DNA from: Bradyrhizobium sp. sBnM-33
GTDB lineage: Bacteria > Pseudomonadota > Alphaproteobacteria > Rhizobiales > Xanthobacteraceae
DNA: 64,000 nt
Direction: 5' to 3'
Assembly (NCBI RefSeq): GCF_032917945.1
Contig: NZ_CP136624.1
Location: 6,138,001 to 6,202,000, forward strand
The stretch's first letter is position 1. Every line of letters starts with the position of its first letter. The notes under the pieces are model-generated. The model was given only the letters and a program-made list of their open reading frames with translations. It did no database searches and was not told where the DNA came from. Positions 23,679 to 64,000 of this stretch are shown piece by piece. Made by a program: the position numbers and the translations under genes.

Positions 23679-24405
23679 GGTCAAAAATCTCAGCCTGGCC
23701 TACGGGCTGCACCGCGCGCTCGATGGCGTCGCCCTCAATGTCGACCGCAGCGAGATCGTGACGATTCTCGGCGCCAATGGCGCCGGCAAGACGTCGCTGC
23801 TGAAGGCCATCGCCGGCGTCGTTCGGACACTGCCAGGCAAGCAGGTGCGCCTCGGTGGCCGCGATATCTCCGCGCTTGCCGCGCACGAGATCGTCGAAAG
23901 CGGGCTGGCGCTGGTGCCCGAGGGCCGCGGAATTTTCGGCGATTTGACTGTGAAGGAAAATCTTCTGCTCGGTGCCAACCCGAAGCGCGCCCGCGAGGGC
24001 GAAGCGGCGCGGCGCGAGCAAGTGCTTGCGCTGTTTCCGCGCCTGCGCGAGCGCGCCGGCCAGATCGCGCGCACCATGAGCGGCGGCGAACAGCAGATGC
24101 TCGCCATCGGCCGCGCGCTGATGTCCAATCCGGACATCCTGCTGCTTGATGAGCCGTCGCTCGGACTCTCACCTGCCATGGTGCAGGAGTTGTTCGCCAC
24201 CTTGCGCCGTGTGCGCGAGGCCGGCGTTGGGCTCCTCCTCGTCGAACAGAACGCGCAGGAGAGCCTGCGGATCGCCGATCGCGGCTATGTGCTCGCGAAC
24301 GGCGTCATCGTCGGGCACGGCACCGCCGCCGAGTTGAAAGCCGATCCCGCCGTCCAGCGCGCCTATCTCGGCGGCGTGCCGCCGGCCACCGCATCATCGT
24401 CATAA
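23671..24405 (+). CDS. livF: ABC transporter ATP-binding protein (LivF)
   Basis: A 244-residue ATPase from ATG 23671 (MLEVKNLSLAYG). The start overlaps the livG stop by 8 bases; an earlier in-frame ATG at 23653 lacks family residues. Walker A is GANGAGKTS, the signature MSGGEQQMLAIGRAL and Walker B LLLDEPSLGLSP. It pairs with LivG to drive the importer. Confidence 0.94.
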   Translation: MLEVKNLSLAYGLHRALDGVALNVDRSEIVTILGANGAGKTSLLKAIAGVVRTLPGKQVRLGGRDISALAAHEIVESGLALVPEGRGIFGDLTVKENLLLGANPKRAREGEAARREQVLALFPRLRERAGQIARTMSGGEQQMLAIGRALMSNPDILLLDEPSLGLSPAMVQELFATLRRVREAGVGLLLVEQNAQESLRIADRGYVLANGVIVGHGTAAELKADPAVQRAYLGGVPPATASSS

Positions 24406-33458: not shown

Positions 33459-33532
33459 TGGGGAATGGTGTAACGGTAGCACAACAGACTCTGACTCTGT
33501 TTGTCTAGGTTCGAATCCTAGTTCCCCAGCCA
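33459..33532 (+). tRNA. tRNA-Gln (CTG)
   Basis: A full cloverleaf can be drawn. Acceptor TGGGGAA pairs with TTCCCCA, the D arm is GTGT/GCAC, the anticodon stem ACAGA/TCTGT holds the loop CTCTGAC with anticodon CTG, and the T arm is CTAGG-TTCGAAT-CCTAG. Discriminator G and an encoded CCA end it. A tyrosine integrase gene begins 76 bases downstream, so the 3' end is a likely attachment site. Confidence 0.95.
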
Positions 33533-33607
33533 GACTCCGAAAAACCGCAACAATCCTGACAGCTTAGATCGGCCGATCTGAAATCCGGCAGACGATGGTC
33601 CAACACC

Positions 33608-35439
33608 ATGGTCCACGGGAGCCGGATTGTGCCTTCCTACCTACGCCGCCGAGGTCATACATGGTTTTTCCGGTGGAAATGGCCCAAGCGTCTTGCGGGT
33701 TGCGGTTTCCCGGGTGAGCTTATTTGCAGCCTGAAGACGAGCGACGTCCGCATCGCTCGCCGCCGGGCGATGCTGCTTGTCCTCAAAATCGAATTGCTAA
33801 TGACTTCAACGAGCAACCCGGGCCGAGCCGAACTGCAGAATGCGGTCCGTAACTGGATTGATGATTGCATCTGGCGCCGCGAGGTCCGGCGCGCGGACAC
33901 CGGCGGGCTGGATTTCTTCGAGCGCGACGAGATCGAACAGATGGGGCGCCAAGAGGCCGCCGAGCTGGACGGTCTCTTCCGCCTCGCCTCCGACATGTTC
34001 GCGCCAGAACAACAGGCCAAGATCGAGCGCATTCTGACCGGCAAGGAGGCATCGGACAAATACCAGACCATCATCGCGGCGGCAGCGCGCGAAATCGGCC
34101 TGCCAGCCGATCCTAATACCGTGGCCGGCCGGTTAGTGGAACGGACCATCCTGCGCGGCTATGCGACCCTGCTCGACGAAATGCGGCAGGCCGTCATTCC
34201 GATTCCTCGCGAGATCGCCGTAGAAAAGAAGCCCGCGCAGCCGGACGCGTTTATCTTTACCGCGTTCTGGGATCAGTTCGAGCAGCACAAGAAGGATGTT
34301 CGCGAGTGGAAATCCGATACGGCCGCGAACGCTGCAGGCACGAAGAACATCTTTGACAAACTATTTCCCGCCGCGACCGTGGCGCAGTTGATCGACAAAC
34401 CGATCGCCAGCGACTTCAAGACGAACCTGCTGTTGCTCCCGCGCCATTATGCCCGCGGCGACCGGAAGAAGATGTCCGGGGAAAAGCTGTTGGCGCAGGG
34501 CCGGACGCTGCCGCAAAAAGAAAGAATGCAGAGCCCGACGGTCAACAAGCACGTCAGCAACCTCGCAGAATATTGGGATTACCTCGTCGAAAAGAAGAAA
34601 ATTCCGGCGGATATCGAAAACCCTTTGCTGGTCTCCATGTCCCTTTGAAGAAAGGCCGTAAGGCGCGGAACGAACGGTTCAATTGGCCGGCCAGCCTCGA
34701 AAAAACACTATTCGAGTCGCCGCTATATGCAGGATGCTCCTCGATTTTCCGGCGGGCAAAGCCTGGAAACGAAATTCACCGCGACGCTCTGTTCTGGATG
34801 CCGCTTCTGGCGCGCACCATGGGGACGCGGGAGAATGAGACCTGCGACGCGCTCGTCGGCGACATCAAGGTGCAAGATACCGGCGAGGGTCCGATCCCGT
34901 ATTTGGAAATCACCGATGGCAAAGATTCGGGCTCGCCTAGAGACGTTCCTTTCGCGGACCTGGTGCTCGACATGGGCTTTCTCGAACAACGGGTGATCGG
35001 CCGCGCCCCCTCCGAGCCCTTGTTTCCGGAACTGATTCCGCAAGGACCCGGAAAGCGCCGGTCTGCGGCATTCACTGATCGCTTTTCCTATTATAGGCAG
35101 TCAATAAAGGTCTATCGGGCCCGCATTGATTTTCATTCGTTCCGCGGCAACGTGGAAACCGACCTCAAGAACATGGCCGGAATCAATCAAGCGTGGATCG
35201 ACGAACTCATCGGCCACGAGTCGATCATCCGCCGCTCCGAGGGCGAGCGTTACACGAAGCGGATTCTGCTCCCGATACTGCGGCGGTTGGTGAACGCGAT
35301 CGAGATCAAGGCCGACTTGTCTCATCTCCGCTACCTCGGAACGCGGGGCGTCGCAGCGCCTAAGCGCGACGCAGAGCTCGCGCGTCATGTCGCCTTGGCA
35401 GAGAAGGAAATGAAAAAGAAAGCAAAGCCTATCGGATAA
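33608..35439 (+). pseudogene. tyrosine integrase with one frameshift, next to tRNA-Gln
   Basis: A phage-type tyrosine recombinase with a DUF6538-like N-terminus (VPSYLRRRGHTWFFRWKWP). The first part is open from ATG 33608 to a stop at 34648. The rest continues in the -1 frame up to 35439. The expected NPFAGLHVPLKKG is restored if one base is added in the CCC run at about 34621. All catalytic motifs lie in the second frame: LLARTMGTREN (Arg), DFHSFRGNVE (HxxR), LIGHES and a tyrosine in EGERYTKR. It may be dead, or a sequencing error or frameshift may be involved. It marks the left border of an island. Confidence 0.85.
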
Positions 35440-44371: not shown

Positions 44372-44408
44372 TGTCCTCTCCCTTTTGAACCAGTGGGCGA
44401 CAGCTACG

Positions 44409-45044
44409 AACCAAGAAGCGATGCGCGCGCTCTTCCGCGTGATGAACCGTTATGTCGGCAACCTGCCCCCGATGCCAGGCGTGTTTCCCGATTATCCCGC
44501 GCCCGTCATTCGCAATGCGGGCACCGAACGCGAGTTGACCCTGATGCGCTGGGGCATGCCGCCACCGCCACGCACTGGCGGGCCGCCGGTGACCAATATC
44601 CGCAATACGTCCTCGCCGCATTGGCGCGGTTGGCTGGAGCCGGAAAATCGTTGCCTAGTGCCATTCAACAGCTTCGCGGAGTATGCGCCTGAGCCGAACC
44701 CGGAGACCAAGAAAAAGGACGTCGTCTGGTTCGCCATCAATGATGATCGGCCGCTGACCTGCTTCGCGGGCATCTGGACGGAGTTCAAGTGTGATCGCGG
44801 GACCAAGTCGAAGCCCGTTCCTGGACCGCATAATGTCTACGGCTTTCTTACCACGTCGCCCAATGCCGTCGTCGACCCGATCCATCCGAAGGCCATGCCG
44901 GTCATCTTGCAGACGGACGAGGAACGCGACGTTTGGATGCGTGCGCCGTGGGATGAGGCCAAGGCGCTGCAGCGGCCGCTGCCAGATGACGCGTTGAAGA
45001 TCGTGCTGCGAGGAGCGGACAAGGAAGACAAGGTTGCCGCATGA
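44409..45044 (+). pseudogene. SRAP (YedK/HMCES-like) protein without its catalytic N-terminus
   Basis: The frame carries nearly all of an SOS-response-associated peptidase domain: [71 protein letters not shown] and [15 protein letters not shown] proteins bind abasic DNA through Cys2 directly after the initiator Met. Here the expected MCNLYSITT start is absent; upstream of TNQ the frame reads LNQWATA and runs into the cold-shock 5' region. The first in-frame ATG is at 44421. Without Cys2 it cannot form the DNA crosslink. The rest is intact, so loss is confined to the first dozen codons. Confidence 0.8.
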
Positions 45045-45294
45045 AATACGCTACCGCTCGCCGCTGATTGGTGGACAGGGGCGAGCACCCTTGTGAACTC
45101 CGCTGGGTGTCAGAACTTGAAATGGCCGCGCCGCCGCCCGGGGCTCCCGAGGTGGGCGGTTCGATTCCGTACGTTCGAGCGCGCATCTCTCTTCCAAAGT
45201 CTGGTTCAGGACAGACGCGCGGCTAAACAAGTCCTATGAACCGAATTTCAATGCTCTCCAACTAATGGAGAGATGCGCTGATGAGGTGACGCTC

Positions 45295-50388: not shown

Positions 50389-51067
50389 AGGTGCAATCTC
50401 TATTCGATCACCACCAACCAAGCCGCCATCCTCACGCTGTTCCGCGTCGTTAACCGTTACGGGCAACCTAGCGACGATGCGCGGCGTACTTCCGGACTAT
50501 CCCGCTCCGATCGTCCGCAATGCCAGGACCCGACGGCGAGATGGTCATGATGCTGGGAATGCCGCCACCGCCGAAACTCGATGGTGCACCGGTCACCAAC
50601 ATCCGCAACACGTCGCCACCGCACTGGCGCGGCTGGCTGACCGGAGAACCGCTGCCTGGTGCCGGCGAACAGCTTCGCCGAGTACGCTCCGGAGCCGAAT
50701 CCGGAGACCAAGAAAAAGGACGTGGTTTAGTTCGCGCTGAACGAAGACCGGCCGCTGTTCGCGTTCGCCGGCATCTGGACCGAATTCAAGGGCGACCGTG
50801 GCACGAAGTCGAAGCCGATCCCTGGGCCCCATCTGGTCTATGGTTTCCTGACAACGTCACCGAACGCCGTCGTCGAGCCGATCCATCCGAAGGCGATGCC
50901 CGTGATCCTGACGACCGAAGAGGAGCGCGACGTCTGGATGCGCGCCGTGGGACCAGGCGAAGGCGCTGCAGCGTCCGCTGCCGAACGACGGGCTCAAGAT
51001 CGTTATGCGAGGACCCGACAAGGAAGACCGGGCCGTCGCGCTCTCGTCGGCAGAGAGACCCGCCTGA
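50389..51067 (+). pseudogene. second SRAP (YedK/HMCES-like) gene, heavily damaged
   Basis: Homology starts at CNLYSITTNQAAILTLFRVVNRY, with the catalytic Cys2 codon kept (TGC at 50392), but the start codon is AGG instead of ATG. Several frameshifts follow. Fragments of [37 protein letters not shown] and [13 protein letters not shown] lie in different frames. A TAG at 50728-50730 replaces the usual Trp codon in VVWF. The end [16 protein letters not shown] closes at 51067. It is about 75 per cent like the SRAP remnant at 44.4 kb by eye. Confidence 0.87.
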
Positions 51068-51935: not shown

Positions 51936-52912
51936 ATGAAGCGGCGGAAGTTCATAACGGGAACTGCGGCGCTGCTCGTTTTGCCAAGGTGTTCGTGGGC
52001 GCAGGGGGCTCGCCGTCGACTTGGCTTTCTTGCCATAGGTGATGGAAGCGGGCAGGCCCTGAATCAAGCTGAGCGTGTGTTCCTTGATGGGCTGCGAAGC
52101 CTCTGTTGGATAGATGGACGAAACCTGATTATCGAATCTCGCTTTTCCCATCCCCCGATCGACTGCCAGCTTCAGTCGCCGACCTCATTGCTCTCAATCC
52201 CGATGTGCTCATCGCCGCTGCACCACGGGCAACCGCGGCCCTAAAATCGGCAACTGCTACCGTTCCGATTGTATTCGTAGCTGTGTTCGATCCCGTAGGG
52301 CTCGGCTTCGTGCAAAGCCTACCGCGTCCCGGCGGCAACATAACGGGTCTTGCGACCTCCGCGGGAGTAGCGGTTGCAAAACAAATCGAAATCCTCCGGG
52401 AACTGGTTCCTGGCGCCTCCAAGATCGCGATCCTGGTCAACCCGGGCAACCCAATGCACATGCTGATGTTAGCGGAAGAGGTACCCCGCACAGCCCGGAA
52501 CCTGGGCGTGGCTCTGCCAATAGTTGAGGCGACCACGGCCGAGGAGCTCGATACCGCCTTTGCCTCGGCCGCCGCCCAGCATCCCGATGCAATGATTGTT
52601 TTTGGCGATGCCCTCACGGTCGTCCAAGGCCCCCGAGTTATCGCGCTCGCGGCGAAGCATCGCCTGCCTGCTATTCATATCTCACGACAATTCGCCAATG
52701 GCGGATTGGTCGTGTACGGCCCCGATATAGCCGATCTGTTCCGCCGTGCAGGCGGCTATGTCGATAAGATCCTGAAAGGCACCAAGCCTTCCGATCTACC
52801 GGTAGAGCAGCCGACCAAATACGAGCTCATCGTCAACGTGAAGACGGCCAAGGCGCTCGGCCTCACCGTGCCGCCCTCGTTGCTCGTCCGCGCCGACGAG
52901 GTGATCGAATAA
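51936..52912 (+). pseudogene. PF04392-type solute-binding protein with one frameshift
   Basis: It starts MKRRKFITGTAALLVLPRCSWAQ, a signal peptide, and reads GDGSGQALNQAERVFLDGLR and WIDGRNLIIESRF. The frame then shifts near 52145-52160 and goes on as DRLPASVADLIALNPDVLIA through FDPVGLGFVQSLPRPGGNITGL to LPVEQPTKYELIVNVKTAKALG and RADEVIE. Without the shift it would be about 325 residues, as normal. All other parts are well kept, so the change may be recent or an error in the sequence. Confidence 0.85.
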
Positions 52913-52950
52913 TTCTGCCTTCTCAGCCAACCATCAGTCTGCTGTGGCAC

Positions 52951-54204
52951 TCAACCCAATTCCATCCGGACCCCCTTGCCGCCGTTGAGTAGCCGTTTCA
53001 GATGAAAGCCGGCGAGCGGGTCATCCGAATGCATGCCGACCAGCGCCGCGAAGGCCGGCATTGCTCCTTGATCGCCGGCTTCGAGCCTAGCAAAGGCTTC
53101 GGAATAGCGAGCGGTGGCGGCCGCCGCGAAGGCCTCGGCCTTCAGTGGTTCGTAGGCGCGAAGTGGTCCGCTCCGACCCCGCAAGATCAGGTCGCCGACC
53201 GGGCGCCCGCGGAAATTCGCTGCTGCATTTGCGACGGCCGCGCTGGCGCAGATCCTGGTCCCCAAGAACTTGTTGGCCGCTTCCAGGCGTGCCGCGGTGT
53301 TGATTGTGTCGCCGTGGGCCGTGTAGTCGAAGAAGCGACTTCCTCCGAAATTTCCGACCAGTGCGGGGCCGGCGTGAACACCGATGCGGGTCGCTCCGAA
53401 ATTTACGCTCCTGGCTTTCCACCGCTCACGGAATTCTTCCGCCCAAGCGTCGAGAGCATGCGCGCAAGCGACCGCGCGCGTGGCATAATCGGGCTGATCG
53501 CCGGGTGCATTGAAGAGAACCTCGATCGCGTCGCCAATGATCTTGGCCACCGTTCCTTCGTGCGCAAAGACTACGTCAGTCATTCCGGTGACGTATTCGT
53601 TCAGCAGTTCGCTCAAAACCCCCGGCGCGGCAGCTTCGACTAGGGACGTGAATCCAGTGATGTCGGTGAAGATGGTCGCGACTTCGCGCCAGTGCACCTC
53701 CATGCCGTCGGCCTCACAACTGCCAGCCGCAAGACGTTTGGCCAACTGAGGCGAGAAATAGCGCGATAGCGAAGCATTGGCGAGCTCCGCCTCGATCTGA
53801 CGGCGGCGGGTTTCGCGCAGCATCTGGACGTGCCGCATCGTCTTGTCGATTGTCGCTTCGAGGTCTGCGAACTCGATCGGCTTGGTGAGGAAGTCGAAGG
53901 CGCCGCGGTTCATCGCTATACGGATATTGCTCATGTCTCCGTACGCCGAAACAATGATGGTCGACTTCTTCTCGTCCTCTTGCTGAAGTTTTGCCAGGAG
54001 CGATAGTCCGTCCATCCGCGGCATGTTGATGTCGGTGACCACCAGATCGATATCCGGATGAAGCTCAATCAATTGCAGCGCCTCGACGCCGTCACGCGCG
54101 AACATGAACGTTACAGCACCCCCGTGGATTTGCCTGCGGAACTTCTGCAGGACCAACTCCTCCAGGTCTGGCTCGTCATCGACTACGAGGATGGTGGCCG
54201 TCAT
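52951..54204 (-). CDS. response regulator with class III adenylate cyclase output
   Basis: A 417-residue protein. The receiver (1-125) has phospho-acceptor Asp58 (VVTDINMP) and Lys108 (FLTKPI). A helical linker (125-165) leads to a class III nucleotide cyclase: metal Asp181 (IFTDITGF) and Asp225 (KIIGDAIEVLF), Lys221, and transition-state Asn302 and Arg306 (HGDTINTAARLE). So phosphorylation is likely to control cAMP production. Its ATG overlaps the stop of the lone receiver gene. It is the last gene of the three-gene signalling operon. Confidence 0.93.
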   Translation of the reverse strand: MTATILVVDDEPDLEELVLQKFRRQIHGGAVTFMFARDGVEALQLIELHPDIDLVVTDINMPRMDGLSLLAKLQQEDEKKSTIIVSAYGDMSNIRIAMNRGAFDFLTKPIEFADLEATIDKTMRHVQMLRETRRRQIEAELANASLSRYFSPQLAKRLAAGSCEADGMEVHWREVATIFTDITGFTSLVEAAAPGVLSELLNEYVTGMTDVVFAHEGTVAKIIGDAIEVLFNAPGDQPDYATRAVACAHALDAWAEEFRERWKARSVNFGATRIGVHAGPALVGNFGGSRFFDYTAHGDTINTAARLEAANKFLGTRICASAAVANAAANFRGRPVGDLILRGRSGPLRAYEPLKAEAFAAAATARYSEAFARLEAGDQGAMPAFAALVGMHSDDPLAGFHLKRLLNGGKGVRMELG

Positions 54205-54590
54205 GCCGCTTCCTCGAGCCTGGCATCGATTTCATGCCGCAACAGAGCGAAATCGATCGGCTTGGTCAGAAGACCCTCTGCGCCACTCTCGATCGCTTTT
54301 TTCCGAGTTTCGGCATCGCCATAGGCCGTGATCATGATGACGGGAACGTCGGGCCGCCGGGCTCGCACTTCCGGCAGCATCTCCAGGCCGCTCATGCCGG
54401 GCATGTTGATGTCAGAGAGGATCAAAATTAGCGTGGCATCCCGGATCTCCACGGCGCGCTGCAGCGCCACCGCCGCCGAAGGAGCAAACTCCATGAGGAA
54501 TCGGCCGGCGCGCAGATCGCGCCGGAAGTGCTGGCGAAACAGGACCTCCACGTCAGGTTCGTCGTCGACCACAAGAATGTAAACGCTCAA
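54201..54590 (-). CDS. single-domain response regulator
   Basis: A 129-residue receiver with no output domain. Asp10/Glu11, phospho-acceptor Asp60 ([13 protein letters not shown]), Thr/Ala (MITAYGD) and Lys110 (LLTKPIDF) are in place. It has ATGA overlaps with the histidine kinase above and the cyclase below. It could be a phosphate sink or a link between the kinase and the cyclase. Its receiver is related to the receiver of the cyclase protein. Confidence 0.93.
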
Positions 54591-57190
54591 TTTGCGCCTC
54601 CCGCTCTTGCTTGCGCCGCCAACGTCCGTGGCAGCGTAATAATGAATTCGGTAAACACGCCTGGTTCGCTGAGAACGTCGATCTTGCCCGCATGCTGTTT
54701 CACCACGATGTCGTGGCTCATGGAGAGGCCAAGTCCGGTGCCTTCGCCTGCGGGCTTGGTAGTGAAAAACGGATTGAAGATCTTCTCTCGGACCTCCTTG
54801 GGAATCCCCGTGCCGTTGTCCCGAATGCGGATCTCCACCTTATTGCCAAGACTCCTGGTGCTGGTGCTAAGGGTGGGCTCAAATCCGTCGCTTTCGGCTT
54901 GCTTGCGCTTCGTCGCTGCGTAAAAACCGTTTGAAATCAGGTTCAGAAGGACCCGCGTGATCTCCTGCGGGAATATGTCGACCGCGCCCGCGTCGGGATC
55001 GAGATCGCGCTTGAGCGTGATGTTGAAGTCGGACTTCTCCGCGCGGGCGCCATGATAGGCGAGATTGAGGCTCTCCTCGACGATCGTGTTGATATCCGTA
55101 GGGCGGCGCTCTCCCGATCCCGCACGCGAGTGCAACAGCATGTTCTTGACGATCGAATCGGCGCGTTTGCCGTGCTGCACTACCTTTTCGAGATTGCCTC
55201 TCAGAGTGTGCGTGAGGTCATCCAGCTCCTCGCGCACCCTGTCGGCGAGCGGGGTCGATTTGAGCAGAACGTTCACTTCGTCGATCAGCTCGGTCGACAG
55301 CGCCGAGAAGTTGTTGACGAAGTTCAGTGGGTTTTTGATTTCGTGCGCAATACCAGCGGTGAGCTGGCCGAGAGAGGCAAGTTTCTCCGTCTGGATCAGC
55401 CGGTCCTGCGCGGCGCGCAGTTCTTCGAGCGACTGCGACAATTCGGCCGTACGGTCACGTAACTCGTTTAGCAGTCTCGCGTTCTCGATCGCGATCACCG
55501 CTTGAGTGGCGAAGTTGGCGACCAGCTCGATCTGCTTGTCTGTGAACGGCCTGACCTCCTGTCGGAAGATCGTAATCGTGCCGACTAGATCGTTCTCTTT
55601 GACCATCGGAACGATCACCAGTGTTCGCGCGCCGGCAAGGTCAGCGAGCGCACGGACGTAAGGGTTGCCTTGAAGGTATGGCGGCTGCGTTCTGATGTCA
55701 GAGATGTGGACCGTTTGATGCGTCCGCTGGATTGTCGCGAGGCCACTCTCGGGGTGAGGACGAATGAGCTGGTAAAGCTGGATATCAATGTACGCCTTCG
55801 GAGCATTGTACACCGCTACCGTGCGAAAGCCGTCGCCTTCATAAAGGGTCATGGTGCCGAAATGGGCTCCGCAGATCCGAGTTGCGTTTTCGAGCATCTT
55901 TTCGAATACAGGCGCGAGATCGCCGGCCGACGACGTGATCGTCTGGAGGACCTCGGAGGTCGCCGTCTGCTGCTGAAGGGACTCGCGCAACTCGGCCGTC
56001 CGCTGCTCGACCTTCTTTTCCAAGTCGGCGTAGGATTCCTGCAGTCGCGCCCCCATCTCGTTGAACTGGTCGGCAAGCCCTTCCAGCTCGTCACCGGTCC
56101 TGATTGCGATACGTTGGGCAAAATCTCCGCCACCGATACGCGCGGCGCCGATACGCAGCGCCTGAATCGGCCCGACCATGCGCCGGGCGAGAAGAACCCC
56201 CGCGAGTACGGCGAAGATCGAGGCGGCCAGCAACACGATCCCTAACCGCTGCAAGGCGGCATAGAGCGAGGCGTAGGCCTCCTCCACCGGCAGCTCCACG
56301 AGCATGGTCCAGCCCACGGGAGCAATTGGTGCGGAGGCCGTCAGAACCTGTTGCCCGTGGATGTTCAGTGCGCCCTGCAACTCGTTCGCTGCGTCGTCAA
56401 GCCGGCCAGTCTGCGCGGCCTGGACCTGCGCCAGCTTCGACATGTCGGTGTTACGTAGCACCAGACTAATGTCGGGATGCGCGATCAATCGGCCTTTTGA
56501 GTCGACCACGTAGGCGTGACCGTGCTGGCCGACCTTGATCTGGGAGACCACGTCCCAGATCAGCTTCAGGTTAACTTCCGCGATGCTGACCCCGGCGTCC
56601 TTGCGGGTGCCGGCGACCGCCAGGGTCATGTACGGCTCGGACTCTCGTCGGAAATAGACCGGCCCGTAATAGACCCTGTGCGCCATGGCCTCGGTAAACT
56701 TCGGATCCTTTGAGAGATCGAGTCCGCTGTCGATCACGTCCATAGCCAGGCGCGATACACGCAGCCGTTCCTTGCCGGTCGAATCCACCTGGGCCAGTTC
56801 CGTGACGGCCGGCACCTGGCGCAAGAGCCGTAGGGCATCGAACCGACGTTGCTCTGGCGATCCGGCCGACCACGGCAACTGTGTCGTCCAGCCGAGCTGG
56901 CTTTGGATCTCCTTGACGAATTGGCTGATCTTTGCCGCGGCGGCTTCCGCTTGTTCGTGCTGGATGCGTATGAGGGAAGCTTTGTGCTCGCGATAGTAAA
57001 AGAAAACTTCGAAAACTCCATTTGTTAGGAGCGCAACGGCGACGACTGCAACGAACAGTGCGACGTACTTGACGAAAAGGCGGCTCCGGTCCTTACGCCC
57101 CGAAGCTGCTGGCTTCGACACCGCGCTCTCTGGCGGCAGTGCCGTCAAGGTCCCGCCTTGAGGCGCATCGGGGTGGAGGGAAATGCTCAT
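54587..57190 (-). CDS. sensor histidine kinase with periplasmic Cache, HAMP and GAF domains
   Basis: An 867-residue inner-membrane kinase. Membrane segment 1 is about residues 40-68. A large periplasmic region (about 70-310) has double-Cache features ([36 protein letters not shown]). Membrane segment 2 is at about 318-340, then HAMP, coiled coil, and GAF ([16 protein letters not shown]). The H-box is [13 protein letters not shown] (phospho-His); N, G1 and G2 boxes are [14 protein letters not shown] and GTGLGLSM. It senses a small ligand outside the cytoplasm and passes phosphate to the two receivers. Three solute-binding genes precede it on the same strand. Confidence 0.94.
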
Positions 57191-57307
57191 ATGCCTAACC
57201 CTGGAAACAACTCCGAACCTTTCTCATGCTCGGGCCGGCAGAGCTGCTGCCGCCACGTTCACAGCCTTTCTGCCTTGGACAACTGGACCGAACGACACCT
57301 TTCTCCC

Positions 57308-58264
57308 TCATTCGACAACGCTGTCCGCCTGCAGCAACACCAACTCCGGAACTGTGAGTCCAAGCGCTTTCGCCGTACGAAGATTGATCATGAACCGAAA
57401 CGTAGCTGGCTGCTCGACGGGCATTTCGGACGGGTTAGCGCCTTTGATGATTCTGTCCACGTAGTAGGCCGCTTTCACAAACATGGCCAAAATGTCCGGC
57501 CCGTAGCTCATCAGCCCCCCCATCTGGATGTACGCATCCACCTGATAGATTGCCGGTAAGACAAATTTCAGAGATAGCTCCGGTATCGCTGGACGAGGAG
57601 GATCTGCGAGAACGTACACCGCCTCGCATTTGGCAAATTTCATTGCCTTGAAGGCGGCCTCGAGATCGTTCGGCGTGTCCGCGACAAACCGTTCAGCCGA
57701 AATCCCAATTGCTTCGGCTCCACGCTTTGCAACCTCAAACAAGGGAGGGTGCGTCGGATTGTTGGAAGTTAACACGCCGATTTTCTTAGCGTTTGGAAGC
57801 ACAAGGTGGAGAAAGTCCAGCGTCTTTGCAGTCAGATCGCCGAACATGTTCGCCACACCGGTGATGTTGCCACCCGGACGGGCAAAACTCTTGATGAATC
57901 CCGAACCTATCGGATCGGTCGCAGGGGACATTACGATTGGAATCGTGGAGGTTGCCTTCTGCGCGGCGGCTATAGCAGGGGTAGCCTCGGCGATAATTAC
58001 GTCAGGTTTTGAGCTAACAGCTTCTCTCATAAGATCGGGCAAGGTACTGTAGTTGCCCTTTGCCTCTCGTACCTCGAGGATCAGATTCTTTCCATCAACG
58101 TATCCAAGGCCGCGCAAAGCGTCCCTCAACACTGGGACCGATCGCACCGCTGAGCCAGACCCCACGTAGGCGACGCGCCAAGTTCGAGATGGTTCGGCGA
58201 CGGCGCGACCACGCGCAAGAAGCAGTAAAGCAAAGCTGCCCGATAGAAGTTCGCGCCGCCTCAT
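57308..58264 (-). CDS. PF04392-type solute-binding protein
   Basis: A 318-residue periplasmic binding protein, last of three overlapping paralogues. It opens MRRRELLSGSFALLLLARGRA, an RR-type signal. PF04392 features include LRDALRGLGYVDGKNLILEV, PDVIIAEATPA, SPATDPIGSGFIKSFARPGGNITG and GANPSEMPVEQPATFRF. The end is LLQADSVVE instead of ADEVIE. No permease or ATPase gene is nearby. Its ATG lies in the last codons of the upstream paralogue. The kinase start is 117 bases below. Confidence 0.92.
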   Translation of the reverse strand: MRRRELLSGSFALLLLARGRAVAEPSRTWRVAYVGSGSAVRSVPVLRDALRGLGYVDGKNLILEVREAKGNYSTLPDLMREAVSSKPDVIIAEATPAIAAAQKATSTIPIVMSPATDPIGSGFIKSFARPGGNITGVANMFGDLTAKTLDFLHLVLPNAKKIGVLTSNNPTHPPLFEVAKRGAEAIGISAERFVADTPNDLEAAFKAMKFAKCEAVYVLADPPRPAIPELSLKFVLPAIYQVDAYIQMGGLMSYGPDILAMFVKAAYYVDRIIKGANPSEMPVEQPATFRFMINLRTAKALGLTVPELVLLQADSVVE

Positions 58265-59256
58265 TCGATCACCTCGTCGGCGCGGGCAAGCAGCGGTTCA
58301 GGACTTAGTAGTCCGATGTCCTGAGCAGCCTTGCGATTGATGACGAACTCGAATTTGGTCGGCTGATAGAAAGGGATATCACCCGGTTTCGCGCCCTTGA
58401 GGATTCGATCAGTCACATGGGCGGCTTGTCGAAAAATCTCCACGAGGTCGATGCCATAGGCCATAAGGCCACCGGCTTCCACAAATGAACGAAACGGGTA
58501 GATGGCCGGCAACCGATACTGTGCAGCCAGTTCGCCGATCAGCTGCCGCTTTGTGATGTGCTCCGGGCTTCCATCGACAAATAGCGCCTCGGCACCTTCC
58601 TGCGACATCCTGGCGAAGACGCGCCGATATTCTTCCTCGCTCCCATCATCGATAAAAGATGGACCCGCGACCTGGATACCCGCTTTCTCGACAGCCTCTT
58701 GCATTGAGGCTCGTTCGGGGTTTCGTCGTACAGCCAGGATTGCCAACTTGGATACTGTTGGAACGAATTCCCTTAGAAGCTGGATGCGTTTTGCCCAAAG
58801 CTCCAGACCGGCATCGACGGTAACGCCGGTGATGTTTCCACCGGGCCGAGCGATACTAGCCGCGATACCGTGGCCAACCGGATCGCTGGTCATGGCAACA
58901 ATCGGGATTGCTGACGTTGTTTCTTTGAGAACGGCAACCAGCGAAACACTAATCGCAAAAATAAGGTCTGGATTTCGGGCCGCAACATCGCGGGCGAGCT
59001 TGGGATAGCTGTCGACGCGCCCTTCCGCCGAGAAGCGCTCGATCACAAGATTATGTCCTTCGACATACCCGAGCTGGCGAAGTTCTCCGAAGAACTCGCG
59101 ATAGTACCGGAAGCGGCTGAGTTCGTTCAGCTCGGTTATCGGGTGCGACGGATGCATGATCGCCATCCGGTACATCTTTGCCGCTTGTTGCGCACGCACC
59201 GTAAGCGGCAGTATGGAAACTGCACCTAGGATCGCAATAAGCTCGCGCCGTCTCAT
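58261..59256 (-). CDS. PF04392-type solute-binding protein
   Basis: A 331-residue periplasmic binding protein, second of three. It begins MRRRELIAILGAVSILPLTV with the same RRRE opening and ends LARADEVIE. Middle features are FGELRQLGYVEGHNLVIERF, IVAMTSDPVGHGIAASIARPGGNITG and GAKPGDIPFYQPTKFEF. ATGA overlaps join it to both neighbours. The ligand is unknown. It is closer to the plus-strand gene at 62137 (KPGDIPFYQ) than to its neighbours, by eye. Confidence 0.92.
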   Translation of the reverse strand: MRRRELIAILGAVSILPLTVRAQQAAKMYRMAIMHPSHPITELNELSRFRYYREFFGELRQLGYVEGHNLVIERFSAEGRVDSYPKLARDVAARNPDLIFAISVSLVAVLKETTSAIPIVAMTSDPVGHGIAASIARPGGNITGVTVDAGLELWAKRIQLLREFVPTVSKLAILAVRRNPERASMQEAVEKAGIQVAGPSFIDDGSEEEYRRVFARMSQEGAEALFVDGSPEHITKRQLIGELAAQYRLPAIYPFRSFVEAGGLMAYGIDLVEIFRQAAHVTDRILKGAKPGDIPFYQPTKFEFVINRKAAQDIGLLSPEPLLARADEVIE

Positions 59257-60239
59257 TCGATAACCTCATCCGCACTAGCGAGCAATGTTGGCGGTAGAGC
59301 CAGATTAAGTGCGTTCGCGACCTTGAGATTGATCACCAGCTTGAAGCGCGTGGGCTGTTCGACGGGCAGGTCAGCAGGTTTTGCGCCCTTCAAGATTTTG
59401 TCGACGTAACTGGCCGCTTTGCGAAAGAAGTCGGGGAAATCCTGACCGTACGACATCAACAGTCCGTGGGGCACCATTTCTGCAATGACGGACCCCGCCG
59501 GTATTCTGTGCGCCAGCGCAGCCTTGCCGACCCGCTCCCGTTCATTGAACAGCATCGATCCCATCACAAGCGCGGCGTCGTAACTGTTGCCCGCGACTGA
59601 TGAAAACGCCGTCTCAATCGCATCCGGGGTTGGCACCTCGACAGACCCAGCTTTCAGCCCCAGAGCCTTCGCTGCGCTAAGATATGATGAGAGGTTCGCA
59701 TTTACCGGGTCGTTAGTGTCGATCAGGAGCGCCACGCGCTTGAGCGTCGGAACCGCCTCCTTCAAGAGACCTAACCGTTTGCCCGAAGTATCTAGAGTCA
59801 TGACGGAAAGTCCCGTGACGTTGCCGCCTGGGTGAGCCAAGCTTTCAATCAGGCCACTGCTGACCGGGTTAACGCCTAGGACAAGGACTACGGGAATTGC
59901 ACTCGTCGCCCGCCTAAGCTCCATCGCGCCTCTTTGGGTCACAGCCAAAATTACGTCGGCTCTCTCTTCGACGAGGTCCTTTGCGAACTGGCGAAACCTT
60001 TCGGGTTGCTCAGCGGGAAATCGGTGCAAGAACACGACGTTCTTGCCGTCGACATAACCGAGATCACTGAACGCCTTGGTTAGGATGTCCAGATAGACCT
60101 TCTCTTCGTCAGCACTGCCGGCGTGCCAAAGCACACCGATTTTGACGACCCGGCTACTCGCAGGAGTCCGCTGTGCGTGCGCGACCAGCGGCCAAGCAGA
60201 TGACATTGCCACAAGGTGGATGAATTGCCGCCTCCTCAT
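59253..60239 (-). CDS. PF04392-type solute-binding protein
   Basis: A 328-residue periplasmic binding protein, first of the minus-strand run. The start is ATG 60239 (MRRRQFIHLVAMSSAWPLVAHA) with GGGGAGG close above; an in-frame ATG at 60350 is rejected. It has FSDLGYVDGKNVVFLHRF, LGVNPVSSGLIESLAHPGGNVTG, GAKPADLPVEQPTRFKL and the end ASADEVIE. Directly upstream the DNA still spells EVIE-stop, a leftover of a lost paralogue. Confidence 0.92.
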   Translation of the reverse strand: MRRRQFIHLVAMSSAWPLVAHAQRTPASSRVVKIGVLWHAGSADEEKVYLDILTKAFSDLGYVDGKNVVFLHRFPAEQPERFRQFAKDLVEERADVILAVTQRGAMELRRATSAIPVVLVLGVNPVSSGLIESLAHPGGNVTGLSVMTLDTSGKRLGLLKEAVPTLKRVALLIDTNDPVNANLSSYLSAAKALGLKAGSVEVPTPDAIETAFSSVAGNSYDAALVMGSMLFNERERVGKAALAHRIPAGSVIAEMVPHGLLMSYGQDFPDFFRKAASYVDKILKGAKPADLPVEQPTRFKLVINLKVANALNLALPPTLLASADEVIE

Positions 60240-60408
60240 TCGATCACCTCCCCGCGAGTCTACGCGGCGACATTGGCGTTCTTTGATTGAGCGGAAGACC
60301 CTTCTGCTGCTCGTGATTGAACACCCAGCGTCAGAGGTTGTCGATTCCAAAACGCCCCATTCAGACGTTAGATCATGCCGTTTCGGTCAACGTTGCTGAC
60401 CGTAAATC

Positions 60409-60660
60409 TACGAAGGTACCACCATTTTCATCGAGCGAAGGAGTGGGTTCTCGCCTTACCAGCTTTCGACTTTTGCCGCCGACCTGGTGCGATCGAAACC
60501 CGATCTCATCGTCACCATGTCAATCGAATTCTCAAAGGCGCCAAACCGGATTGAGCAGCCCACCAAATTCCTGCTTCTCATTAATCTCAAGACAGCGAAA
60601 TTGCTCGATATTGAGATTCCGGTGTCCCTTCTCACCCGTGCGGACGAGGTGATCGAGTGA
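60409..60660 (+). pseudogene. internally deleted PF04392-type solute-binding gene
   Basis: The plus strand reads YEGTTIFIERRSG and STFAADLVRSKPDLIVTMS, the first third of the family. It then jumps to RILKGAKPD (in a shifted frame) and IEQPTKFLLLINLKTAK with the end LLTRADEVIE and a stop at 60658-60660. About 150 residues between, the signal peptide and a start codon are missing. It is divergent from the intact run on the left. Confidence 0.85.
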
Positions 60661-60713
60661 AGCGACCACTTCCGTTGTTGGCATTTCTTTGCGACTTGCG
60701 CCAAATACCAACA

Positions 60714-60787
60714 ATGTCTGTTTATCGGGGTAGACCGGAAGTGACCGGCTGACAGTCAAAACGACGCGATTGACCCAACTCGGACAT
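60714..60787. repeat. 74-base intergenic element with ATGTC/GACAT ends, copy A
   Basis: It is bounded by ATGTC and GACAT and contains GACCGGAAGTGA and, 49 bases in, GACGCGATTGACCCAACT. A copy of the same length with the same motifs at the same spacing lies at 63195-63268. Both sit between solute-binding protein genes. Confidence 0.7.
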
Positions 60788-60907
60788 CACGCAGGGTCCA
60801 ATTGGATATACAGGTAGCTGTTAAGCGGCTAAAACAGGCACCGGAAACCACGTTTGGTTTCGGGCAATTAAATGAATAGCTGCGCTTCATTGCTCTCAGG
60901 GACAAGG

Positions 60908-61870
60908 ATGAAACGGCGTGAGTTTCTCTTAAGCCTCGGCGGAGCCGTAATATGTCCCTTTGCTGCGTTTGGGCAGCAAATCAAAGTTCCGACAATCGGC
61001 GTACTCGTTTTTGGGAATCCTAATCCCGGTCCCTTTTTGAAAGCTCTTCGAGAAGCGCTGGGAAAAATTGGCTACATCGAAGGCCAGAGTTTTCGCCTAG
61101 AGCTGCGATCCGCGGGTGGCGATGCGGCAGCCCTTGGAGACTTGGCTAGTGAATTGGTTCGCCTCAAAGCCGACGTTATTGTCGCTTGGCAAACGCCATC
61201 TGCCATGGCGGCGAAGCAAGCCACGAGCAGCATTCCCATCATCATGGCGGCAGTCGGCGATGCGGTTGCTACCGGGCTTGTAAAGAACCTGGCACGGCCT
61301 GAAGGTAACATCACCGGAAATACGGCTATCGCTGCAGAAGTCATGGCTAAGAACGTCGAACTCATTCGTGAGACGTTGCCGGCCGCTCGCCGCGTTGCAG
61401 TTCTGGCGAACACGGTGGACCCCTTCAGCAAGCCCTTTCTCAGTCAGATCGAGCTCGCAGCACCGGCCCTTGGCATCGAGATCAATCGGGTAATGATGCA
61501 TCCAACGGAGAATGCCGAGGGTCATTTTGAGGGAATGAGCCAAAGCAAGGTGGATGCAGTTATTATTCAACCAACCTTGGTACGGAGGGATGTCATCGAA
61601 CTCACACTGAAGCATCAGATGCCTTCGTTCTCGATGGTTGGTTCGTTTCCTTCTTCGGGCGGTCTGATGTCGTACGGCGCCTCTGATCCCGACCAGTGGC
61701 GGGAAGTGGCCATATACGTGGACAAGATACTGAAGGGCTTACGCCCGGCCGATTTGCCAGTCGCGCAACCGACCCGGTTTGAGCTAATCGTGAATCTCAA
61801 GACCGCCAAAACGCTTGGCATCACCATTCCTCCGTCGCTGCTTACGCGCGCGGATGAGGTGATCGAATAG
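60908..61870 (+). CDS. PF04392-type solute-binding protein
   Basis: A 320-residue periplasmic binding protein from ATG 60908 (MKRREFLLSLGGAVICPFAA) with AGGGACAAGG above; an in-frame ATG at 60872 is less likely. It has REALGKIGYIEGQSFRLELR, VGDAVATGLVKNLARPEGNITG, LRPADLPVAQPTRFELIVNL and the end LTRADEVIE. It stands alone on the plus strand. A 15-mer at 60798-60812 shared with the vapB promoter region is 96 bases upstream. Confidence 0.92.
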   Translation: MKRREFLLSLGGAVICPFAAFGQQIKVPTIGVLVFGNPNPGPFLKALREALGKIGYIEGQSFRLELRSAGGDAAALGDLASELVRLKADVIVAWQTPSAMAAKQATSSIPIIMAAVGDAVATGLVKNLARPEGNITGNTAIAAEVMAKNVELIRETLPAARRVAVLANTVDPFSKPFLSQIELAAPALGIEINRVMMHPTENAEGHFEGMSQSKVDAVIIQPTLVRRDVIELTLKHQMPSFSMVGSFPSSGGLMSYGASDPDQWREVAIYVDKILKGLRPADLPVAQPTRFELIVNLKTAKTLGITIPPSLLTRADEVIE

Positions 61871-62136
61871 CGTTTTCTTGCTGTGGCGCATGAGTCCGGT
61901 TTTGGCACTTTCAGACCTGCCGTTCGCGTTCAACGATGTCCGTTTGTTGGGGTAGAGCTGATACCGTTGGGATCGCAATTTCGTCTAAGGCTGACCCTTC
62001 GCGGTCATGGCGCAACGCAGAATAGCGGATTGCCGCGCTCGACATCTTGCGCCTCCAACACCCCTGACTCCCATGCCGCAATGTGGTATGCTTCGACCTG
62101 GATTTAGCGTGGTCCTGAGCCTCCTTGGAGGGCTGC

Positions 62137-63141
62137 ATGAGACGGCGCGATTTCATCGGTCTTCTTGGCGGTGCGGCGGTGGCATGGCCGCTCGCTGCAG
62201 CGGCACAGCAGAGCACCAATAGCAAGCGTCTTGCTATCTTCAGCCCATCACAGCCAAGCGCGGACCTGCATGAACATAGCGAAAGCAAAGGTTGGCGAGC
62301 CTTATTCGCTGAGCTTCGGCGGTTAGGACAGATCGAGGGACAAAACCTCAATGTCGAAAGTTACGGCCGAGAGCAAAGCACCTCCGGCCCCGAAGCCCTG
62401 GCGACGGAAATCGTTCGAAGCAACCCGGACGTCATCTTCGTCGTTGGCCCTGGCGCAGTCATCTTCAAAAAACTAACATCGCGTATTCCCATCGTAGCGA
62501 TAACTGGTGACCCCGTTAAGACGGGGATCGCCGACAGTCTGGCGCACCCGGGCGGCAATTTCACGGGAGTTAGCGTCGACGCCGGTCCATCCATTTATGG
62601 AAAACGGATCGCACTGTTGCGCGAGATGTTCCCGACCATGTCGAAACTTGGCTGTCTCATTCTTCGATTGCAATGGAATGTAACCCAAGGCCCCGCAATC
62701 CGCGCAGCGGCCGAAACGGCAGGCCACCCTCTCGCGGTGTCTTTAGTGGAAATGGGTACCAGCGAAGCAGGCTATCGGGCGGCGGTCGAGAGCATCTCTC
62801 GCGACGGTGCAGATGCGGTCATGGTCGTCGAGTCGCCTGAGACCGAACAAAAAGGCGCTTTGATCGCCAAGTTGCTCGGCGACGCGAAGCTTCCGGCGAT
62901 TTTTTCGTTTACCGAATCCGTCGAGGCCGGGGGCTTAATGGCCTATTCCTTCGACCTGATCGAATTGTATAAGCGCTCCGCACATCCTATCGACGCAATT
63001 CTCCGGGGAGCAAAACCCGGCGACATCCCGTTCTACCAAGTAATTAAATTCGAGTTGTCCATCAACCTCAAGACAGCTAAGCAGCTGGGGCTTTCCGTAC
63101 CTCCTGCGCTCGTCGCGATTGCCGATAAGGTAATTGAGTGA
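62137..63141 (+). CDS. PF04392-type solute-binding protein
   Basis: A 334-residue periplasmic binding protein. ATG 62137 follows GGAGGG by four bases and begins MRRRDFIGLLGGAAVAWPLA, an RR-type signal; the ATG at 62125 is before the ribosome site. It has AELRRLGQIEGQNLNVESY, TGDPVKTGIADSLAHPGGNFTG and GAKPGDIPFYQVIKFEL. The end reads IADKVIE, a change from ADEVIE. No transporter partner is near. Confidence 0.92.
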   Translation: MRRRDFIGLLGGAAVAWPLAAAAQQSTNSKRLAIFSPSQPSADLHEHSESKGWRALFAELRRLGQIEGQNLNVESYGREQSTSGPEALATEIVRSNPDVIFVVGPGAVIFKKLTSRIPIVAITGDPVKTGIADSLAHPGGNFTGVSVDAGPSIYGKRIALLREMFPTMSKLGCLILRLQWNVTQGPAIRAAAETAGHPLAVSLVEMGTSEAGYRAAVESISRDGADAVMVVESPETEQKGALIAKLLGDAKLPAIFSFTESVEAGGLMAYSFDLIELYKRSAHPIDAILRGAKPGDIPFYQVIKFELSINLKTAKQLGLSVPPALVAIADKVIE

Positions 63142-63389: not shown

Positions 63390-64000
63390 ATGTGGCGCAA
63401 GACGGTGTGGCTCATCGCGATCCTGACCCTCAGCATCTTCGTCGCGCCGGTCGCCTCGGCGCAGAAACCTGGAAAGGTACATCGAGTGGGCATGGTGTTT
63501 ATCCGACCGCCCAATCTTCTCCCGCCTAATATTCCGCAGCCGTCGTTTGGGAAAGGTGGATTTGCCCGCGCGTTTCTGGATCGGCTGGCCGACCACGGCT
63601 ACATTCAGGGAAAGAACCTCGTCATCGAAGCGCGGTACGGAGGATACGAGCGATTGGCGGAACTTGCAGCTGAGTTAGTGCGCCTCCCGGTCGACGTCAT
63701 CTACGTTGGCGGCACGAAGGCGGTCCGGATCGTCAGCGCCGCGGTGAAGGAGACGCCGCTGGTGATCCTCTCTTGCGACGCGTTGGCGCACGTCGCTGGG
63801 CTCAACCGACCAGAGGGCAACCTTACCGGAGTGACCTGCCTGTCCACGGAGCTGAGCCCGAAGAGGCTCGAGTTGCTCAAAGAGGCGGTCCCGAACGCGG
63901 TCCGGGTGGTCTACCTTTCCGACCCTGAAGACGCGCCGCCCGGGCTCAAACTGACGCAGGACGCTGCACCTCGCCTGGGGATCAAGCTCCAAGTCACCGA
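63390..64000 (+). CDS. PF04392-type solute-binding protein, cut by window end
   Basis: The first 203 residues of another family member. ATG 63390 is preceded by AAAGGAG. It begins MWRKTVWLIAILTLSIFVAP, a signal without the RRR opening of its paralogues and with an AXA-type cleavage at ASA-QK. The mature part has FLDRLADHGYIQGKNLVIEA and LAHVAGLNRPEGNLTGVTCL. It seems a more distant branch of the family. The end is outside the window. Confidence 0.9.
   Translation, partial: MWRKTVWLIAILTLSIFVAPVASAQKPGKVHRVGMVFIRPPNLLPPNIPQPSFGKGGFARAFLDRLADHGYIQGKNLVIEARYGGYERLAELAAELVRLPVDVIYVGGTKAVRIVSAAVKETPLVILSCDALAHVAGLNRPEGNLTGVTCLSTELSPKRLELLKEAVPNAVRVVYLSDPEDAPPGLKLTQDAAPRLGIKLQVT

Follow-up and report, generated by a model that had tools for sequence, protein, structure and literature searches.

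Do periplasmic binding proteins encoded beside a signal transduction system serve import, or do they pass ligands to its sensor? The question is raised by a stretch of 64,000 nucleotides from Bradyrhizobium sp. sBnM-33 (contig NZ_CP136624.1, positions 6,138,001 to 6,202,000 of the forward strand; hereafter the window), in which six minus-strand genes run in one direction between positions 52951 and 60239. Three encode solute-binding proteins (SBPs) of family PF04392, termed S59 (59253-60239; Pfam E 2.1e-40), S58 (58261-59256; E 1e-37) and S57 (57308-58264; E 1e-46). They are followed by a sensor histidine kinase with the architecture dCache_1-HAMP-GAF-HisKA-HATPase_c (54587-57190), a single-domain receiver (54201-54590; PF00072, E 1.2e-22) and a receiver-class III cyclase (52951-54204; PF00072 and PF00211, the latter with E 6.4e-17), referred to as the trio. 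The list of open reading frames (ORFs) and Pfam placed all six genes at the positions and with the domains given in an earlier sequence-based reading of this DNA (the original prediction), which had proposed that the SBPs present ligands to the periplasmic Cache domain and set cyclic AMP (cAMP) levels. The pairing of Cache-HAMP sensors with PF04392 proteins across different outputs (kinase, kinase plus cyclase, direct cyclase) is a stronger pattern than the link of SBPs with this trio.

Pairing of Cache-HAMP sensors with PF04392 proteins

The Cache-HAMP part of the kinase was searched in 297 genomes of the order, which at 1e-30 yielded 34 matches in 17 genomes. The surroundings of 29 of the 34 matches were read, the remaining five being four matches in the genome of the window itself and a second fragment of a split match; loci and genomes are cited by L and G numbers. 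Outside the window's genus, a PF04392 gene abutted the Cache-HAMP gene in seven of nine loci, drawn from eight genomes and six families. Three of these loci (L294, L299 and L300) hold SBP and kinase ORFs that overlap by 4 bases, as was also found at L114, L186, L190, L235 and L309 (junction sequence read for the first four). L295, from another family, carries the complete SBP-SBP-kinase-receiver-receiver/cyclase set. Cache-cyclase genes with an SBP alongside were found at L296-L298, the pairs of L296 and L298 being convergent and hence weaker, and ABC permease matches lie 2.7 kb from the SBP of L297. Five of the eight genomes have no PF04392 gene above the family cut-off other than the one on the Cache side; the share of PF04392 genes in this position is 2/4 in G257, 1/4 in G242 and 0/2 in G194. 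Within the genus, an SBP stood at or near the Cache gene in six of 20 loci (L301 being an array), five held the trio with an RND pump and no SBP, and one had neither; the other eight are taken up below. Conserved linkage in related genomes had been named in the original prediction as its check, and for the sensor type it was borne out: in several families of the order, PF04392 genes and Cache sensors of this type lie side by side, their frames often overlapping by 4 bases. Moreover, PF04392-histidine kinase fusion proteins are encoded in the window's own genome (L130:7515-9764) and in a relative (L194:6246-8111), in both cases with adjoining receiver genes.

The genome of the window (9.18 Mb, one contig) has 16 PF04392 matches, 14 of them in one 24-kb array that also holds the trio and a second cyclase, fused to a hydrolase. 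The 15th PF04392 ORF (5.23 Mb), the sole other free-standing one, overlaps a dCache-HAMP-cyclase ORF, and the 16th match (0.47 Mb) corresponds to the N-terminal region of a PF04392-PAS-HisKA-HATPase protein, so that all 16 matches lie in an array with, adjoin or are fused to signalling genes. The three SBPs described as orphans in the original prediction do exist, but their number was understated, since plus-strand PF04392 genes of the array stand on both flanks.

Neighbourhoods of PF04392 genes were compared with controls. In a circular-shift test on three single-contig genomes (G002, G005 and G008), a cyclase or dCache match lay within 3 kb of seven of the 24 PF04392 matches listed (shift mean 0.67; 0/5000 shifts as high) and of three of the 150 listed for PF13458, another SBP family (shift mean 4.07); the matches listed were 24 of 28 for PF04392 (15 of 16 for the window's own genome), 150 of 200 for PF13458 and part of those for dCache. 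A cyclase, kinase, receiver, GAF or Cache match was present within 3 kb in 15/33 and 17/41 PF04392 stretches, compared with 0/60 control windows, whereas ABC matches were present in 1/33 and 0/41 stretches, compared with 14/60 control windows, the latter overlapping in part, being drawn from 20 arbitrary stretches and, like the stretches, scored with local profiles. The set of 33 comprised the listed strong PF04392 matches of nine genomes, with the three clustered matches of G008 taken as one stretch and weak matches, including kinase fusions (L194-L197), excluded; the 41 stretches, from G006 and G011, were hand-picked from 115 matches. The cyclase profile was widened for the 3-kb counts, a narrower earlier profile having missed some cyclases.

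Around the window module itself, the predicted lack of ABC genes in the surrounding 12 kb was confirmed. To the left, local profiles recognised no ABC gene nearer than those ending at 24405, at a distance of 28 kb; to the right, they recognised none as far as genome position 6222000, which lies about 24 kb past 60239. These profiles thus detected no permease or ATPase within 24 kb on either side of the window SBPs. No SBP-permease-ATPase operon was seen around the Cache/PF04392 pairs, and single ABC genes lie a few kb away in some stretches (e.g. L173, L193 and L297). At L327:7468-10150, a PF04392 gene stands a few bases from a gene for a membrane protein with a long N-terminal part preceding an MFS domain, possibly a further PF04392 partner.

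Sequence features and predicted folds of the module

Both SBP/SBP junctions (S59/S58 and S58/S57) read ATGA, as had been stated. For the trio, where ATGA overlaps had been claimed as well, this applies to the receiver/receiver-cyclase junction, whereas the kinase and the receiver, which has a TTG start, share TTGA. The gap between S57 and the kinase (57191-57307, minus strand) measures 117 bases, again as given before. Scanning with consensus patterns gave no promoter-like site across 52850-60900 and, within the gap, no terminator-like site either; the result carries little weight, as such sites were overall no more numerous than in shuffled sequence (0 vs 2.7 and 7 vs 7.9).

The kinase has two predicted transmembrane (TM) segments, with dCache_1 (residues 69-298) flanked by hydropathy segments 35-67 and 308-341. 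No TM segment was detected by hydropathy in the receiver-cyclase, which is therefore probably cytosolic. It contains a class III catalytic domain with the metal-binding motifs, located as FTDITGF, IGDAIEV and DYTAHGDTIN, the residues of which we take to have their usual roles in metal binding. S59 has a start (MRRRQF) resembling twin-arginine translocation (Tat) signals. A loosely defined twin-arginine-like pattern occurs near the start of 160 of the 211 SBPs collected, and no lipobox was seen in the array SBPs inspected by eye; the SBPs are therefore read as probable Tat substrates that would be soluble in the periplasm. The structural model of S57 (pLDDT 93.3) had 3lft, with bound L-Trp, as its best solved match (TM-score 0.86). 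That of the kinase Cache domain (pLDDT 88.9) resembled dCache domains of kinases and chemoreceptors, the best solved match being 3li9, a kinase dCache. Both folds are intact in the models, and the comparison confirmed the expected folds only.

Conservation of the trio

With the kinase, 80 loci were found, 68 of which have its Cache type and form the count; the 12 loci L115-L126, with a kinase lacking a match to the window Cache, were left out. Domain labels were mostly obtained with local profiles built on window and locus proteins, named proteins being checked with Pfam. Since orthologous loci recur among the genomes, the loci counted cannot be taken as independent. In 65/68 loci, the kinase is accompanied by the lone receiver and the receiver-cyclase. 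Two of the three exceptions stop at a contig end (L051 and L105), and the third (L072) has no lone receiver. Directly upstream of the kinase, an RND gene without an SBP was found in 30 loci, an SBP in 26, something else in seven and a contig end in five. Among the 26 loci with an upstream SBP, 17 show the order RND-SBP-kinase, with an SBP-kinase gap of 47-56 bases. SBPs are encoded elsewhere in the locus in six of the seven loci with something else upstream and in one of the five at a contig end. In L114, from a divergent metagenome-assembled genome, an SBP-SBP-SBP-kinase-receiver-receiver/cyclase series is joined by five 4-base overlaps, four reading ATGA and one GTGA. The three context states are intermixed on the 64-row kinase tree (minimum 16 changes), and well-supported branches alone force 6 to 8 changes per state; SBP and pump have therefore repeatedly been lost, gained or exchanged. 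For the exact kinase-receiver-cyclase trio, which is itself stable, the expected conserved linkage to SBPs exists but is optional: an SBP is present somewhere in the fetched DNA of 33/68 loci, and 30/68 have an RND pump and no SBP there.

Proposed role of the binding proteins

Similar Cache/PF04392 pairs recur in related families, and the binding proteins may therefore sense rather than import. The favoured reading, which we consider an evenly balanced call, is that a Cache sensor setting cAMP uses the SBPs as optional co-receptors. The trio would form a cAMP-producing phosphorelay whose dCache domain comes from a sensor family that works with PF04392 SBPs. A Tat-exported, soluble SBP, with the fold of the TrpX-like 3lft, would capture a small ligand and, once loaded, touch, modulate or relieve the periplasmic dCache domain; phosphoryl groups would then pass from the kinase to the lone receiver and to the receiver domain of the soluble cyclase, and the phosphorylated receiver-cyclase would change cAMP. 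The SBP would be the exchangeable input, multiplied and swapped in array loci while sensor and output stay constant. A broader version is offered tentatively and with some doubt: PF04392 SBPs may have left transport to become exchangeable co-receptors for one dCache-HAMP family with kinase, hybrid kinase or cyclase outputs, an arrangement widespread in Hyphomicrobiales and so far undescribed, in which the multiplied inputs of the Bradyrhizobium arrays would enable a single sensor to detect many molecules and set cAMP. If confirmed, many 'ABC transporter substrate-binding proteins' of soil and symbiotic bacteria would be mis-annotated sensors. Single-SBP pairs with overlapping frames (L190, L294, L299 and L300) are small systems suited to direct tests of SBP-Cache contact.

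SBP-activated kinases are already known, TorT-TorS, LuxP-LuxQ and XylFII-LytS being examples; the novel elements here are the PF04392 family, the fact that it recurs with a single dCache type across different outputs, cyclases among them, and the arrays. As in the SBP-activated sensor histidine kinases covered in excerpts of two publications (PMC11113362, PMC9602780), a free SBP gene lies beside or overlaps a membrane kinase gene, and the window kinase has a periplasmic ligand-binding domain between two TM segments. According to the excerpted text of the first, 10 of 11 characterised SBP-kinase couples are gene neighbours (PMC11113362). The window system differs from these kinases in its PF04392 SBPs, dCache sensor, receiver-cyclase output and SBP array. 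SBP targets named in the excerpted text of the second are chemoreceptors, kinases, cyclic di-GMP enzymes and Ser/Thr kinases, with adenylate cyclases not among them (PMC9602780). No report of a PF04392/Cache/cyclase link was found in these two publications or in open-access literature searched by titles and abstract starts, a scope mostly outside subscription journals.

The S57 model shares its fold with the SBP of TrpXYZ-type ABC importers (PF04392 SBP, BPD_transp_2 permease, ATPase). Unlike TrpX, however, five window SBPs score 78-143 bits against the TrpX equivalog cut-off of 390, and no permease or ATPase was recognised near them. The Bordetella Bug/TctC orphan SBPs, as presented in the excerpts, are likewise encoded by many same-family genes per genome (PMC9602780); they belong to another SBP family, whereas most copies here stand in one array around a kinase and cyclase. 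In the partial accounts consulted, the CyaD1/CyaD2/CyaK-Clr circuits of Sinorhizobium similarly tie rhizobial class III cyclases to envelope or plant signals, but with CHASE2 or membrane cyclases in place of a kinase-receiver relay with SBPs. The PF04392-histidine kinase fusions in the same genome and a relative make PF04392 a likely kinase input, but are covalent and without Cache. A Pycsar anti-phage reading was set aside: PycC models matched the cyclase domain alone (best E 6e-20), and an effector gene was not sought.

Evidence against the proposal and alternative explanations

Several results weigh against SBPs as co-receptors, and some caution against a strict coupling. Besides the 30 trio loci with a pump and no SBP, eight of the 20 Cache-HAMP loci within the genus are Cache-GAF-cyclase genes 3-4 kb from an RND pump with no SBP (L303, L305, L307, L310, L312, L315, L318 and L320; a further homologue, L131, occurs in the window's own genome), and outside the genus the two loci of G194, L292 and L293, have no SBP. 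The cognate SBP type was not found anywhere in four of five tested genomes with an SBP-less trio (best 35-39% identity), all five being 100% complete by the tool's estimate; the fifth has a 63% relative elsewhere. At the window locus, the same SBP has not stayed with the same kinase: relative to L047 and L069, the two closest relatives, the kinase is 93% and 89% identical and its Cache domain 96% and 93%, while identity between S57 and the SBP occupying its slot falls to 51% and 47%. S59 and S58 have closer relatives within these arrays (85% and 88% in L047, 80% and 90% in L069), and the SBP-kinase gap is 117 bases in the window, 4 in L047 and 35 in L069. The divergence of S57 could reflect exchange of the input or the lack of any dedicated partner. 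In a tree of 211 SBPs, the kinase-side array SBPs are scattered, their 12 rows requiring 11 changes (L053 and L072, counted there among the array rows, are really RND-type), and one dedicated partner as the array SBP beside the kinase was rejected as a general rule, although five of these SBPs lie in one clade of 13 rows (hypergeometric 8e-5, 10 rows; chosen after the tree had been seen). The kinases inside the arrays of L068 (19428-22538), L080 (4666-8271) and L108 (4461-7622; ORF sharing a 4-base overlap with an SBP gene) have GAF domains, no match to the window Cache and no convincing TM segment, so that array membership alone does not imply contact; we read them as a second kinase type tied to PF04392 SBPs. 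No signalling gene lay within 3 kb in 18/33 and 24/41 PF04392 stretches, about half. The ATGA joints between SBP genes may partly be by-products of tandem duplication, because SBP ends and starts are alike. Finally, SBPs encoded near two Pseudomonas kinases showed no interaction in the tests covered by the excerpted text of PMC11113362.

Alternatively, the Cache domain may sense its signal directly and the trio may be independent of the SBPs, having entered, or been overrun by, a mobile and growing SBP array in this strain. The pump-bearing loci and genomes without the cognate SBP, the at least 16 changes among intermixed contexts on the kinase tree and the resemblance of the Cache model to directly ligand-binding dCache domains fit this account, as do the transposase and recent duplicates of the array and its start about 18 kb from a tRNA-Gln/integrase junction. 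We nevertheless regard it as unlikely: SBP-Cache adjacency recurs in families with a single PF04392 gene and no array, and SBPs cluster by sensor type. Those paired with hybrid kinases form one clade (6/6 rows, support 100), those paired with Cache-cyclases require 3 changes for 9 rows, and a single clade contains 13 of the 15 RND-type SBPs.

Co-location might instead mark a target rather than an input, the trio controlling the RND pump by default and, in array strains, the expression of SBPs that scavenge or feed a distant Liv-type permease. An RND gene does stand upstream of the trio in 47/68 loci, in 17 of them with an SBP between (that of L066 being a 151-aa fragment), and in all 8 stretches with a Cache-GAF-cyclase homologue that were read, an RND gene is located 3-4 kb away from it. 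The trio, however, has no DNA-binding output, 16 loci have an SBP and no RND gene anywhere in the fetched DNA, and the window SBPs have no adjacent permease or ATPase recognised by the profiles, which makes this explanation quite improbable. Least probable of all is that the SBPs serve an importer whose permease is encoded elsewhere, their position here being due to chance or shared regulation. PF04392 does include an importer-type SBP, in a canonical SBP-permease-ATPase operon of G194 (SBP and ATPase identified by local profiles, permease by Pfam); weak Liv-type permease matches exist in the window's genome, and in G242 an ABC ATPase lies 1.6-2.7 kb from two other PF04392 genes. Yet the best match to the G194-type permease in the window's genome was not a close relative (E 4.8e-6, 25% identity), and ABC matches are rarer near PF04392 genes than near control points.

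The array and its surroundings

The plus-strand members of the array within the window include a PF04392 gene split over two frames (51936-52912), both ORFs of which (51936-52244 and 52106-52912) match the SBP profile; it is either a decaying array member or a sequencing error. On the other side of the module stand a gene divergent from S59 (60872-61870; E 4.4e-43), a recent duplicate (62125-63141; E 2.1e-29) with 89% DNA identity to an array copy further right, and a gene running off the window end (63390-64000), beyond which seven more array members follow in the genome.

At 33459-35439, a tRNA-Gln (CTG) is directly followed by an integrase in two overlapping frames, with a DUF6538 match and a phage integrase match below its cut-off, likely the edge of a genomic island. 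The 3' end of the tRNA-Gln, sought genome-wide with up to 2 mismatches as an att repeat, matched only the tRNA itself, giving no such repeat, and the array is accordingly at most a possible part of the integrase island. Three copies of one gene flank the SBP array in the same direction (window 44406-45051 and 50407-51039, and L128:13651-14302). They are 77-87% identical, presumably encode an SOS-response-associated peptidase, and the middle copy looks degenerate.

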